From Desulfovibrio ferrophilus (GTDB lineage: Bacteria > Desulfobacterota > Desulfovibrionia > Desulfovibrionales > Desulfovibrionaceae): a stretch of 64,000 nt of DNA. Made by a program: the position numbers and the translations under genes. The stretch is taken from positions 1,163,501-1,227,500 of the forward strand of contig NZ_AP017378.1 of assembly GCF_003966735.1 (NCBI RefSeq). The letters are read 5' to 3'. Shown here piece by piece: positions 34,795 to 40,555 of the stretch. Under the pieces are notes generated by a model. That model saw only the letters and a list, made by a program, of their open reading frames with translations, was not told the DNA's origin and did no database searches. Each line of letters starts with the position of its first letter. Within the stretch, counting starts at the first letter, position 1.

Positions 34795-36285
34795 ATGACC
34801 ACCACGGACAACAACACCTTGTTCTGGGGCCTTGGATTGTCGGACATCGAATGCAAGAAAATCGAGAGTTCGGCCCCCGGATACAGCGTACGAAACTTCA
34901 GTGCAGGCGCCCTGCCCACAGATGAAGAAATGGAAGGGGAAGCCCCATTCCTGATCTGGATTCCTGTGCGCGCCTGGATCACCATGGATGACGACTTCAA
35001 GTCTGCCATCCTTGAGTGGGATCCCGCGCAGAAGGTCCTGCTGGCGGACGCCAAGGATGTGCTGGATGTCGAGCGTCTTCTGGACCTGGGTTTTCTGTCG
35101 GTCCTGCGAAGCCCCTTGGCCACCGACAAGGTTCAGGAAACCCTGTATCGCGCCCGTGAAGTCCACGCCCTGTACGAAGATATCGTGCGTATGACACGTG
35201 AAATCGCCCTTGAACGGGAAATTCTCTCGCGAAAGACAGATTATCTGATGTTTCTGAACGAATTCATGGCGCGAGCTTCTGAAAGTCTGAATCCAGCAAC
35301 CATTCTCACCCAGGCCAGACGCGATCTGTGCTCCCTCTTTGCCGTCTCTGCCGTTCAGGGCATTTTCTGGCAGGAAACAGGTGAGGAATTCGTTGAATCC
35401 GAAATATTTCTGACCTTTCAGGAAGACGCTTCCATTCAGGAGCAATGGGTCGAAATGCTGTTGGAAAGTGCCAGCCGTCTTTCAGGCGTCAAGGTCAACA
35501 GTTACCAGATGACGTATCTGATGGATGCCGAGGCCAAAACTGATTCGACCCTTGAACCTGCTGCCGGACGCGTCATCATGCTTCCGCTCAAGGCGGGAGG
35601 CAAGGAATTCGGAACCCTGGCCTTATTGACTCCTGCACCAGTCAGGCTGACCAAGCAACAGCGTGACGTGTTGCATTCAGCCGTCAATCATCTGGGTCTT
35701 GCCCTTAAAAACGCCCTGCTCTTCCGCGAGGTCAAGATCAAGGCAGACCACGATGGGTTGACCCGCATCTACAATCGTCAATTCTTCGACAAGCGAATTA
35801 TCGAGGAAATGCGTCGTTCCCAACGCTATGGCCAGGACATCTCAATGATGATGTTCGACCTGGATCACTTCAAAAACATTAACGACACTTACGGCCATCA
35901 GGCCGGTGATCTGGTTCTCAAGGAAATCGGCTCATTGCTGATGGAAAGCCTTCGCACCACTGACTTTGCTGCCCGCTATGGTGGTGAGGAGTTCGCCGTT
36001 ATCCTGCCGCATACCGGCGAGGAACAGGCATGGCTGCTTGCAGAGCGCCTGAGGTACAAAGTCGAAAAGCTGCGCTTCCGGCACGATGGCAAGGCCTTCA
36101 CCGTCACCACCTCCATAGGCGTCGCTTCGCTCTCGGCATCCAGCTTCAGCCGAAATCCTGACCTGATCAAGGCTGCTGATCGTGCGCTGTACCTCGCCAA
36201 GGCGTCGGGTCGCAATATGGTCTGCACCTCCGACGGATGTGACGAATACATGGAAGAATTGCAGGAGCAAAAAGCCGGTTCGTAA
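34795..36285 (+). CDS. GGDEF diguanylate cyclase with GAF-like sensor
   Basis: Makes the second messenger c-di-GMP. The 496-residue protein has an N-terminal ~130-residue domain with receiver-like spacing (FLIWIPVRAWI, KVLLADAKDVLDVERLLDLG) but without a clear phospho-acceptor set, a short coiled coil, a GAF-like domain (about 155-310) and a complete GGDEF domain. The latter shows DHDGLTRIYNRQFFD, DLDHFKNINDTYGHQAGD and the active site RYGGEEFAV; an RTTD inhibitory I-site precedes it at the standard distance. The start ATG 34795 follows AGGACGG; an in-frame GTG lies at 34759. No membrane segment, so it is cytosolic. Confidence 0.93.
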   Translation: MTTTDNNTLFWGLGLSDIECKKIESSAPGYSVRNFSAGALPTDEEMEGEAPFLIWIPVRAWITMDDDFKSAILEWDPAQKVLLADAKDVLDVERLLDLGFLSVLRSPLATDKVQETLYRAREVHALYEDIVRMTREIALEREILSRKTDYLMFLNEFMARASESLNPATILTQARRDLCSLFAVSAVQGIFWQETGEEFVESEIFLTFQEDASIQEQWVEMLLESASRLSGVKVNSYQMTYLMDAEAKTDSTLEPAAGRVIMLPLKAGGKEFGTLALLTPAPVRLTKQQRDVLHSAVNHLGLALKNALLFREVKIKADHDGLTRIYNRQFFDKRIIEEMRRSQRYGQDISMMMFDLDHFKNINDTYGHQAGDLVLKEIGSLLMESLRTTDFAARYGGEEFAVILPHTGEEQAWLLAERLRYKVEKLRFRHDGKAFTVTTSIGVASLSASSFSRNPDLIKAADRALYLAKASGRNMVCTSDGCDEYMEELQEQKAGS

Positions 36286-36314
36286 GCAAGAATGCTCCGC
36301 CTAGACTATCATCA

Positions 36315-36338
36315 AGCCGCGCCCTGCGCGGCTTTTTC
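36315..36338 (+). terminator. Rho-independent terminator of the diguanylate cyclase gene
   Basis: AGCCGCGC (36315-36322) and GCGCGGCT (36326-36333) pair across a 3-nt loop and run into TTTTTCT. It begins 30 nt after the stop codon. Confidence 0.9.
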
Positions 36339-36385
36339 TATTCAATCTGACAGGTTGAATCACACACGCAGACTTCTTGACCACA

Positions 36386-36449
36386 GAACCATTATCAGGC
36401 AAAAATGTATGGTTCCGGCATGGTGCCGGGAAGGAGGCCGCCCTCCTTC
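36386..36449 (+). promoter_or_regulatory. Structured leader of the queuosine-precursor transporter gene
   Basis: Three hairpins lie in tandem: GAACCAT/ATGGTTC (36386-36415), CCGGCA/TGCCGG (36415-36429) and GAAGGAGG/CCTCCTTC (36430-36449). They are followed by an unpaired AT-rich linker and the RBS segment CCGGAG (36461-36466). TCCGG at 36414-36418 could instead pair with CCGGA at the RBS, giving an alternative fold that hides the Shine-Dalgarno. There is no U-run, so control would be translational. The pattern does not match preQ1-I. Confidence 0.45.
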
Positions 36450-36476
36450 TAAATCTAACTCCGGAGATATGACATC

Positions 36477-37169
36477 ATGAATGAGCTTCTTTGGCTTTCC
36501 TTTGCCGTGCTCGACCTAACCATGGTCGTGGTACTGTTTCGGCTCTTTGGCAAACCGGCCCTTTATGGGCTCATCGTTTTCAACCTGCTCTTGTGCAACA
36601 TCCAGGTCCTGAAGACCATCGAACTCTTCGGGTTCACAACCACTTTGGGCAACGTACTCTATGCCAGCGTTTTCCTGGCTACGGATCTGCTCGGAGAATT
36701 TTACGGCAAGGACGCTGCAAAGAAAGGTGTCCTGTTGGGATTCGCAGTACTGGTCATGGCAACGGTGTACATGCAAATCGCCATGCAGTTCACCCCCAGC
36801 GCCGATGACTTTGTCCAGCCGCATCTGGAGGCCATTTTCGGGCTTCTGCCACGTCTGGCCCTGGCGAGCCTTGCTGCATATCTGGTCTCCCAGCTCCATG
36901 ACATCTGGGCTTACCATTTCTGGCGCAAACGTACCGGCGAAGGCAAACTCTGGCTGCGCAACAATCTGAGTACTCTTGTCAGCCAATTGCTTGACTCTGC
37001 AATCTTCTGCCTTATTGCTTTTTGGGGCGTGTTCGAGACACCCGTCCTTATTGAAATATTGATTACGACTTATCTCTTCAAGGCCTTTGTTGCCGCCCTG
37101 GACACCCCTTTCATCTACCTCGCCAAACGCGTGGTCTCCAGGGAAAGAGCGGCTGCTTCGGCCTCTTGA
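36477..37169 (+). CDS. Queuosine precursor transporter (YhhQ/QPT family)
   Basis: Imports queuosine precursors (preQ0/preQ1 or queuine-type bases) used for tRNA wobble modification. The 230-residue membrane protein has about six helices and family motifs NIQVLKTIELFGFTTTLGN, ATDLLGEFYGKDAAKKGV and LRNNLSTLVSQLLDSAIF. GGAG lies 10 nt upstream of the ATG, inside a structured leader. The thioredoxin-reductase-like gene follows by 40 nt and is probably co-transcribed. No queuosine biosynthesis gene is in the window, so the exact substrate is open. Confidence 0.93.
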   Translation: MNELLWLSFAVLDLTMVVVLFRLFGKPALYGLIVFNLLLCNIQVLKTIELFGFTTTLGNVLYASVFLATDLLGEFYGKDAAKKGVLLGFAVLVMATVYMQIAMQFTPSADDFVQPHLEAIFGLLPRLALASLAAYLVSQLHDIWAYHFWRKRTGEGKLWLRNNLSTLVSQLLDSAIFCLIAFWGVFETPVLIEILITTYLFKAFVAALDTPFIYLAKRVVSRERAAASAS

Positions 37170-37209
37170 AGAACCCTGTAAACGGTCAGTACGAATCGAG
37201 GAGAAAGTG

Positions 37210-38115
37210 ATGAAAGAAGTCCAGCTCTTGATCATCGGACAGGGTCCCGCAGGCCTGTCTGCCGCCATCTATGCTTCCCGCGCCGGGATCGACACGTTGG
37301 TCATCGGCATGAAGCCGAAAATCGACGGCGACTACGCCATCGATAACTATTTCGGCTTCGAAAACACCATTCAGGCAGCCGACCTGATGGATGCCGGACG
37401 CAAACAGGCAATACGCTTCGGGACCGAAATCATCACCGAGCGAGTACTGACCATCCACATGGAAGAGGACATGACCTACAAGGTCAAAACCGAATCCGGC
37501 CATTACAAAGCCTGCGCCATCATCATTGCCGCCGGCGTCTCCAAGACCCGTTCCGGCATCAAGAACGAAGACGACTACGACGGCAAAGGTGTGTCCCATT
37601 GCGTGTCCTGTGACGGCTTCTTCTACCGTGGGCGCCAGGTCATGGCTCTGGGTGAAGGCGTCTACGCTGCCAACCAGGCCCTGGAACTCACCTCCTACAC
37701 CGAAAAGGTCGCTCTGTGCACTCAGGGCAAGAAGCCCGAGTTCGGTGATGAACTGAAGGCCAAACTGGACGAAGCAGGCATTCCTGTCATCGAGAAGAAA
37801 ATCGAGACCCTGGAAGGTGAAAACGGTCTGGACCGTGTCAAGTTCGACGACGGTGAGACTTTTGACACTGAAGGTCTGTTTATCGCCATGGGCGAAGCCG
37901 GCTCCACAGATTTTGCCTACACCTTGGGCCTGGAGCGCAATGGACACTACCTGGTGGCCAACGAAAAGCAGGAGACCAACCTCCCCGGCATCTATGCGGC
38001 CGGAGACTGTGTTGGCCGCTTCCTGCAGATTGGAGTAGCGGTCGGGGAAGGCTCCATCGCTGCCCGTCAGGCCATCAAATATGCCAAGGAAAAATGTCCC
38101 AAGGACAAGTCCTAA
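37210..38115 (+). CDS. Thioredoxin reductase-like FAD-dependent oxidoreductase
   Basis: A 301-residue flavoprotein with an N-terminal FAD-binding GQGPAGLSAAIYASRAG, a redox-active pair in HCVSCDGFFYRG and the C-terminal FAD motif GIYAAGDCVGR. The second dinucleotide site reads ALGEGVYAANQALEL rather than GxGxxA with basic residues, so NADPH preference is not assured; a ferredoxin- or flavin-dependent relative of TrxR is possible. ATG 37210 has GGAG 8 nt upstream and is far better than the ORF start at 37087, which lies inside the transporter gene. No thioredoxin gene is adjacent. Confidence 0.88.
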   Translation: MKEVQLLIIGQGPAGLSAAIYASRAGIDTLVIGMKPKIDGDYAIDNYFGFENTIQAADLMDAGRKQAIRFGTEIITERVLTIHMEEDMTYKVKTESGHYKACAIIIAAGVSKTRSGIKNEDDYDGKGVSHCVSCDGFFYRGRQVMALGEGVYAANQALELTSYTEKVALCTQGKKPEFGDELKAKLDEAGIPVIEKKIETLEGENGLDRVKFDDGETFDTEGLFIAMGEAGSTDFAYTLGLERNGHYLVANEKQETNLPGIYAAGDCVGRFLQIGVAVGEGSIAARQAIKYAKEKCPKDKS

Positions 38116-38286: not shown

Positions 38287-38362
38287 GGGCCGGTAGCTCA
38301 ATTGGCAGAGCCTTCGGCTCATAACCGAACTGGTGTAGGTTCAAATCCTACCCGGCCTACCA
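38287..38362 (+). tRNA. tRNA with CAT anticodon, probably elongator tRNA-Met
   Basis: A complete 76-nt cloverleaf. The acceptor arms GGGCCGG / CCGGCCT pair with one G-U at position 1-72. The D stem is GCTC/GAGC, the anticodon stem TTCGG/CCGAA around the loop CTCATAA (anticodon CAT), and the T stem GTAGG/CCTAC around TTCAAAT. The discriminator is A and CCA is encoded. The first pair and anticodon stem lack initiator features. A lysidine-modified tRNA-Ile cannot be fully excluded from sequence alone. Confidence 0.93.
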
Positions 38363-40186: not shown

Positions 40187-40542
40187 GGGAGCAGGACAGG
40201 CTATCGCTGCGGTCGCTTGCGGCCGGAGAGGAAAGTCCGGGCTCCACAGGGCGGAACGCTGGATAACATCCAGGAGGGGTGACCCTCGGAACAGTGCCAC
40301 AGAAAACAGACCGCCTGCTTGCAGGTAAGGGTGAAACGGTGGAGTAAGAGCCCACCAGCGGTTGTGGTGACACAACCGGCTAGGTAAACCCCGTTCGGAG
40401 CAAGGCCAAATAGGAAGGTGTTTGAGGCTGGCCCGGCCAAAGCCTTCGGGTAGGCTGCTTGAGGCTGCGGGTAACCGTAGCCCTAGAGGAATGATAGCTG
40501 CCCCCTTGCGGGGAACAAAACCCGGCTTATCGTCCAGCTCCC
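40187..40542 (+). ncRNA. rnpB: RNase P RNA, class A
   Basis: The catalytic RNA that matures tRNA 5' ends. The 5' strand GGGAGC pairs with GCTCCC at the 3' end. Conserved blocks are present in order: GAGGAAAGTCCGGGCTCC (CR I), ACAGTGCCACAGAAAACAGACC (CR II, of which CAGAAAACAGACC is diagnostic), GGTAAGGGTGAAACGGTG (CR III) and CCCGGCTTATCG near the 3' end (CR V). Length about 356 nt. A GC-rich hairpin follows at 40556-40587. Confidence 0.95.
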
Positions 40543-40555
40543 TTATATCAATGAC

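Follow-up and report, generated by a model that had tools for sequence, protein, structure and literature searches.

A conserved two-hairpin leader RNA ahead of a queuosine-precursor transporter gene in Desulfovibrio ferrophilus and a few relatives: a candidate translational regulator

Introduction

Is the structured stretch ahead of a queuosine-precursor transporter gene in Desulfovibrio ferrophilus a regulatory RNA, and if so, of what kind? Passages of PMC11625349 divide the preQ1 riboswitches into three classes, so that one small metabolite is already read by unrelated RNA folds, and sections of PMC10622847 describe how yhhQ of E. coli, a gene of the same protein family, is regulated by a type III riboswitch of preQ1-I in which a pseudoknot hides the Shine-Dalgarno sequence (SD). 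Our analysis covers a 64,000-nt window of the D. ferrophilus genome (NZ_AP017378.1, 1,163,501-1,227,500, forward strand), and coordinates are positions in this window. An earlier note on this DNA had described a three-hairpin leader before the transporter gene and proposed an uncharacterised translational riboswitch or another structured regulator. The gene, here called VUT1, encodes a product of 230 amino acids, and its assignment as a queuosine-precursor transporter is borne out by the match to TIGR00697 (Table 1).

Results

A sequence check of the window found all the letters of the three stems in place (Table 1); stems 1 and 2 can never both form at full length because base 36415 is common to both. 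Leaders of this kind precede VUT1 in five genomes of three genera: the window genome (G000), a second member of its genus (G002), two members of genus g36 (G064 and G036) and one of genus g44 (G044). No counterpart of stem 1 was found in the other four leader genomes, where the longest perfect stem of the corresponding stretch has 4-5 bp and lies in other places. The stem overlaps a promoter, the TTGACC element of which stands 30-33 nt ahead of TTCCG in all five genomes. At the g4 loci the end of TTGAC is followed by the VUT1 start codon after 29-30 nt in 7/7 fetched (L008, L011, L018, L020, L021, L027 and L028), and these VUT1 mRNAs are probably leaderless; by the same spacing, therefore, transcription of the window gene would start near 36411-36413, upstream of position 36430, beyond which a start would have spoken against the leader. 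Stem 1 is thus promoter DNA and is not conserved, which reduces the RNA to two hairpins, P2 and P3, the stems 2 and 3 of the proposed leader, both of which recur in five genomes. By the distances involved, the leader resembles an insert of about 61-68 nt that came to separate the start codon from an old promoter; orthologues that apparently share the promoter and have no leader would show, in nature, the state before such an insertion.

Table 1. Features of the VUT1 locus and of a related leader block, in window coordinates unless a locus is named.
Feature	Position	Strand	Remarks
Terminator-like hairpin ending the upstream GGDEF gene	36314-36334	+	9-pair stem, then T-rich tail
Promoter	36377-36406	+	-35 TTGACC 36377-36382, spacer 18, -10-like AAAAAT 36401-36406; lone promoter-like site in 36200-37250
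Stem 1 of the earlier note (7 bp), promoter DNA outside the RNA	36386-36415	+	GAACCAT 36386-36392 / ATGGTTC 36409-36415; among the five genomes, in the window genome only; overlaps the promoter
Putative transcription start region	36411-36413	+	Estimated from promoter spacing, also at orthologues that share it and are probably leaderless
UUCCGG, possible anti-SD	36413-36418	+	Competes with P2; UUCCG invariant in 5/5, complementary to SD CGGAG
Hairpin P2 (stem 2)	36415-36429	+	CCGGCA 36415-36420 / TGCCGG 36424-36429; forms in 5/5; one pair G-C to A-U
Hairpin P3 (stem 3), 8 bp, loop CCGC	36430-36449	+	GAAGGAGG 36430-36437 / CCTCCTTC 36442-36449; forms in 5/5; one pair A-U to U-A in G044
Conserved single-stranded tail and SD	36450-36466	+	SD CTCCGGAG 36459-36466; same in four genomes; G044 altered in the linker only
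VUT1, queuosine-precursor transporter (TIGR00697 / PF02592)	36477-37169	+	229.4 bits TIGR00697; 185.8 bits PF02592
CUUUGG, codons 5-6, predicted SD partner	36489-36494	+	Minimum-energy fold pairs the SD there in 5/5
g7-type leader block	L019:1391-1503; L023:2164-2276; L024:1391-1503; L029:2167-2279; L040:1891-2003	- in L023 and L029	Candidate second leader RNA

The conservation of the leader is marked. Four of the genomes share, letter for letter, a 36-nt block (AAGGAGG...CTCCGGAG); between the two genera of these four the proteins are 0.70-0.72 identical and the four-fold degenerate sites agree at 0.28-0.41. Within one genus, between G064 and G036, these figures are 0.76 and 0.36. G044 differs in the tail linker and in one P3 pair, and across its 38-nt core 24-25 ungapped positions agree, a figure lowered by a one-base shift. 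The GGAGGCCGCCCTCC of P3 is unchanged in all five genomes; the P3 loop, itself unpaired, is invariant too, as are stretches of the tail, which implies more constraint than plain hairpins would need. Eleven of the 13 pairs in P2 and P3 are invariant and the remaining two are changed on both sides, from G-C to A-U in P2 and from A-U to U-A in P3 of G044. An absence of covariation among homologous leaders, which would have counted against a structured RNA, is thus not what the alignment holds, in that both variable pairs covary, among just five sequences. The same covariation score was reached by 19/500 shuffles, and with two varying pairs the support from covariation is modest. Compensatory changes before one gene family are accordingly present, in few sequences: both helices form in every one of the five genomes, and all the leaders stand before VUT1. 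Taken as a single fold, the window stretch has a z-score of -2.15, with 6/200 shuffles folding as well, and the 54-57-nt core has z-scores of -1.85 to -2.47 across the five genomes, matched by 14 to 43 of 1000 shuffles. The single-sequence fold is only mildly unusual; conservation is what exceeds chance. Comparison of the sequences argues that a conserved leader RNA, spanning about 36411-36466 and made up of P2, P3, the tail and the SD, without stem 1, is real.

The leader is narrowly distributed. A protein search gave a VUT match in 78/149 genomes of the family, and 51 of those 78 hold a close relative of VUT1 (E <= 4e-63, counted from the match table); most of these relatives do without this leader RNA. 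A pattern search allowing up to 3 mismatches found it in 4/288 family genomes. A covariance model built from the five leaders, R1, was run over 348 genomes of the order and recovered the same five with scores of 80-90 bits; the best of the remaining matches reached 29.6 bits. An R1 class search, also over 348 genomes, returned the same five and that 29.6-bit match. Among 395 genomes drawn from the phylum R1 gave, beyond the window, just one partial match (27.3 bits, G723), and on 95 related loci the leader was matched only in L032 (86.4 bits), the named twin of G002 that we left out of the five-genome count; the other loci scored at most 15.2 bits. There is one copy in the window's own genome, and the leader was found neither in phages or plasmids by blastn nor in viral contigs by pattern search. 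It is, in our reading, a real and narrowly distributed RNA that stands in no catalogue.

Weak R1 matches were inspected and set aside: one in G088 (29.6 bits), a set at 22-26 bits in rpmI-rplT gaps, and others at 21-23 bits. As a side observation, three weak matches (25.6-29.6 bits) lie over about 11 kb of one contig (G088:C11:19644-30882), and the one inspected there has a hairpin and CTCCGGAGG ahead of an unrelated gene. The 22-26-bit set is a P2-like hairpin (GTTCCGGCATTGTGCCGGGA) at about 1501-1582 in L096, L100, L101, L102 and L104, from five genomes of another family of the order. From its reading frame we take the gap that holds it to be rpmI-rplT, and we regard this hairpin as chance or as part of an L20 site.

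Three segments could pair with the core of the SD. The first, UUCCGG at the 5' end, contains the pairing proposed in the earlier note, the letters of which are present (TCCGG 36414-36418, CCGGA 36461-36465). It can form in all five genomes with at least 5 pairs; its columns never vary, 630/2000 shuffles of the stem-2 region pair equally well with the SD, and forcing it costs 1.2 to 8.1 kcal/mol relative to the best fold. The proposal of an anti-SD strand is thus possible in every genome and neither proved nor refuted, since the columns are fixed and chance reaches the pairing easily. The second is the CCG of the P3 loop, complementary to SD CGG in 5/5, again in columns that never vary. The third lies in the coding sequence, at codons 5-6: in the minimum-energy folds the SD GGAG is mostly paired, with unpaired probabilities of at most 0.27 except for one position of G064 at 0.44. 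The matching Leu codon is CTT at 5/5 leader loci versus 12/74 other distinct loci, a bias noticed after the fact among related loci that are not independent. Covariation was found for none of the three partners among the five leaders. For a pairing of the preQ1-II kind, in which the loop of a first hairpin reaches the SD across a second one, the P2 loop, read by eye as UGG or CGG in 5/5, would offer the CC near the SD no more than 3 pairs.

No known preQ1 riboswitch class was recognised in the leader. Rfam, run with gathering and with permissive thresholds (E up to 10), gave no match on the window leader, including to RF00522, RF01054 and RF02680, and searches of 18 and 17 related loci gave no riboswitch at the leaders. 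As a control, the known type III leader of E. coli yhhQ was also missed by Rfam (E up to 1), so its silence is weak evidence against preQ1-I. According to parts of PMC11625349, preQ1-I is marked by UC or AC before the 3' strand of P1 and, in types I and III, by UU flanking the 5' strand; in P3 the 5' strand is followed by CC and the 3' strand preceded by GC, and P2 likewise lacks the marks. The earlier note, too, had remarked that the layout does not match preQ1-I. No description of the leader came up in a literature search that reached parts of the published texts. The class guessed at in the earlier note was the right one, for the RNA is conserved, structured, absent from Rfam and ends in an SD.

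The yhhQ type III leader is the nearest in role: both are small RNAs right before the start codon of a COG1738/VUT-group gene, with a hairpin, an A-containing tail and an SD that is proposed to be hidden. They differ in build: the yhhQ leader has one hairpin only, the loop of which is rich in pyrimidines (UU at its start, AC ahead of the 3' strand), and its SD is AAGG; the present leader folds into two hairpins, has CCGC as a loop and uses CCGGAG as its SD. Because the sequence marks are missing and there is an extra covarying hairpin, we do not file the leader as a member of preQ1-I; it may still work like one. With preQ1-II (RF01054) it shares more than one hairpin before the SD, a queuosine-precursor transporter gene as target (queT) and SD occlusion, but preQ1-II forms an HLout pseudoknot that holds the anti-SD strand and is restricted to Bacillota, according to sections of PMC11625349, and the leader has no Rfam match to it. 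PreQ1-III (RF02680) likewise leads a precursor-transporter gene and carries its anti-SD in a stem-loop; it measures about 100 nt with five helices in the same parts of PMC11625349, against about 65 nt and, in the consensus fold, two hairpins here.

The gene content of the leader genomes points to salvage. Full-length QueC (194-244 bits) occurs in 6/24 genomes searched and is absent from the five leader genomes; these give either no match or partial ones that score no higher than 29.5 bits, some of them above the Pfam cut-off of 22 bits. A genome search found no QueF in G002, G064, G036 and G044, each of which has one VUT gene only. G000 does have QueF, alongside a second VUT gene divergent from queF (G000:C1:2066741-2067940), and two salvage routes may coexist there. 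Tgt and QueA are present in 12/12 genomes searched, the five leader genomes included. Four of the five thus lack QueC, QueF and a second VUT and possess Tgt and QueA, and they therefore need an outside Tgt substrate that QueA can use, namely preQ1; from this gene content VUT1 most likely imports preQ1. The link between leader and salvage is not tight, because G138, likewise without QueF and QueC, has no leader.

Discussion

Our data support the conservation of the leader, its hairpins P2 and P3, the position of the promoter, the link to the gene and the queuosine-salvage context. The reading we favour, held tentatively and a little short of even confidence, is that a cis-acting RNA of about 65 nt, beginning at 36411-36413, controls the translation of VUT1 through access to the SD, with preQ1 as the likeliest input. 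Among its parts, translational control by the leader is likely; preQ1 sensing is plausible, and the leader is quite possibly a new preQ1-type riboswitch. The RNA would consist of P2, P3 with its invariant CCGC loop, the conserved A-rich tail and the SD CTCCGGAG, and translation would be set by whether the SD is free. Its core could pair with the 5' UUCCGG, which would break P2; with the CCG of the P3 loop, in an H-type pseudoknot like that of preQ1-I with the tail crossing P3; or with the CUUUGG of codons 5-6. The likeliest signal would be preQ1, as the cargo that the transporter itself carries; when plentiful, it would lead the RNA to lock the SD and so reduce uptake. We infer SD switching, the ligand and the direction of control. 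It counts against a ligand switch that the thermodynamic fold alone gives a mostly paired SD without ligand.

A more specific proposal is that of a fourth preQ1 riboswitch class: an RNA of about 55 nt with two hairpins, the insertion of which separated VUT1 from an old promoter in a few genera of a single family, with most of its carriers dependent on preQ1 salvage only, and with an SD core shared by the upstream strand, the apical loop and the coding sequence. We regard this as possible, though on balance doubtful. If true, yet another fold would serve this gene family, in organisms unable to make the precursor, and the case would provide a compact test of how frequently sensors of this sort evolve afresh.

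The best-surviving alternative, itself unlikely, is that this conserved RNA controls translation in response to a protein or a small RNA, or that it is an autogenous site whose binder is something other than a queuosine precursor; the hairpins and the SD would then form the binding site. The sequence constraint on loop, tail and SD would suit such a site, as would the GGA motifs in the 5' arm of P3 and in the SD, but the motif in P3 is base-paired, no candidate binder was found, and a global regulator would be expected at more genes than the single copy in the window's genome.

Second comes a structural role, which we consider improbable: without sensing anything, the 5' end would stabilise the mRNA or hold translation constitutively low. 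Hairpins at the 5' ends of transcripts protect mRNA, and the predicted pairing of the SD with codons 5-6 in all five genomes, together with the CTT codon in 5/5, agrees with low translation; such an end would have no need for an invariant loop and tail, or for 36 identical nucleotides across two genera.

A divergent preQ1-I riboswitch resembling type III, in which P3 would act as P1 and its loop would pair with the SD, is very unlikely. The order of hairpin, A-containing tail and SD, the complementarity of loop CCG to SD CGG in 5/5 and the control of yhhQ by type III (parts of PMC10622847) all speak for it, against a loop of just 4 nt (CCGC), the missing UU and AC/UC marks and our estimate that a 3-bp match between loop and SD readily arises by chance. 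A leader peptide with ribosome stalling is the least probable of all. The frame that ends at the conserved TAA, which reads GRRPPSF in four genomes, begins with ATG (MVPGRRPPSF) in G000 and G064 and keeps its stop codon in five genomes. We rejected this reading because the frame has no ATG, GTG or TTG start in 3/5 (G002, G036 and G044); it also offers no Tyr, His, Asn or Asp codon for queuosine to decode, and in G044 it takes two changes that alter amino acids and preserve a stem pair.

Genus g7 and a named relative carry a different conserved block before VUT1 (GTATTTATTATGTTGCGG ... CAGGAG; Table 1). Rfam gives no riboswitch match on it, so that VUT1 may have a second kind of leader RNA. The window also contains, further downstream than VUT1, a tRNA-Met gene (38287-38362) and the class A RNase P RNA (40188-40545).
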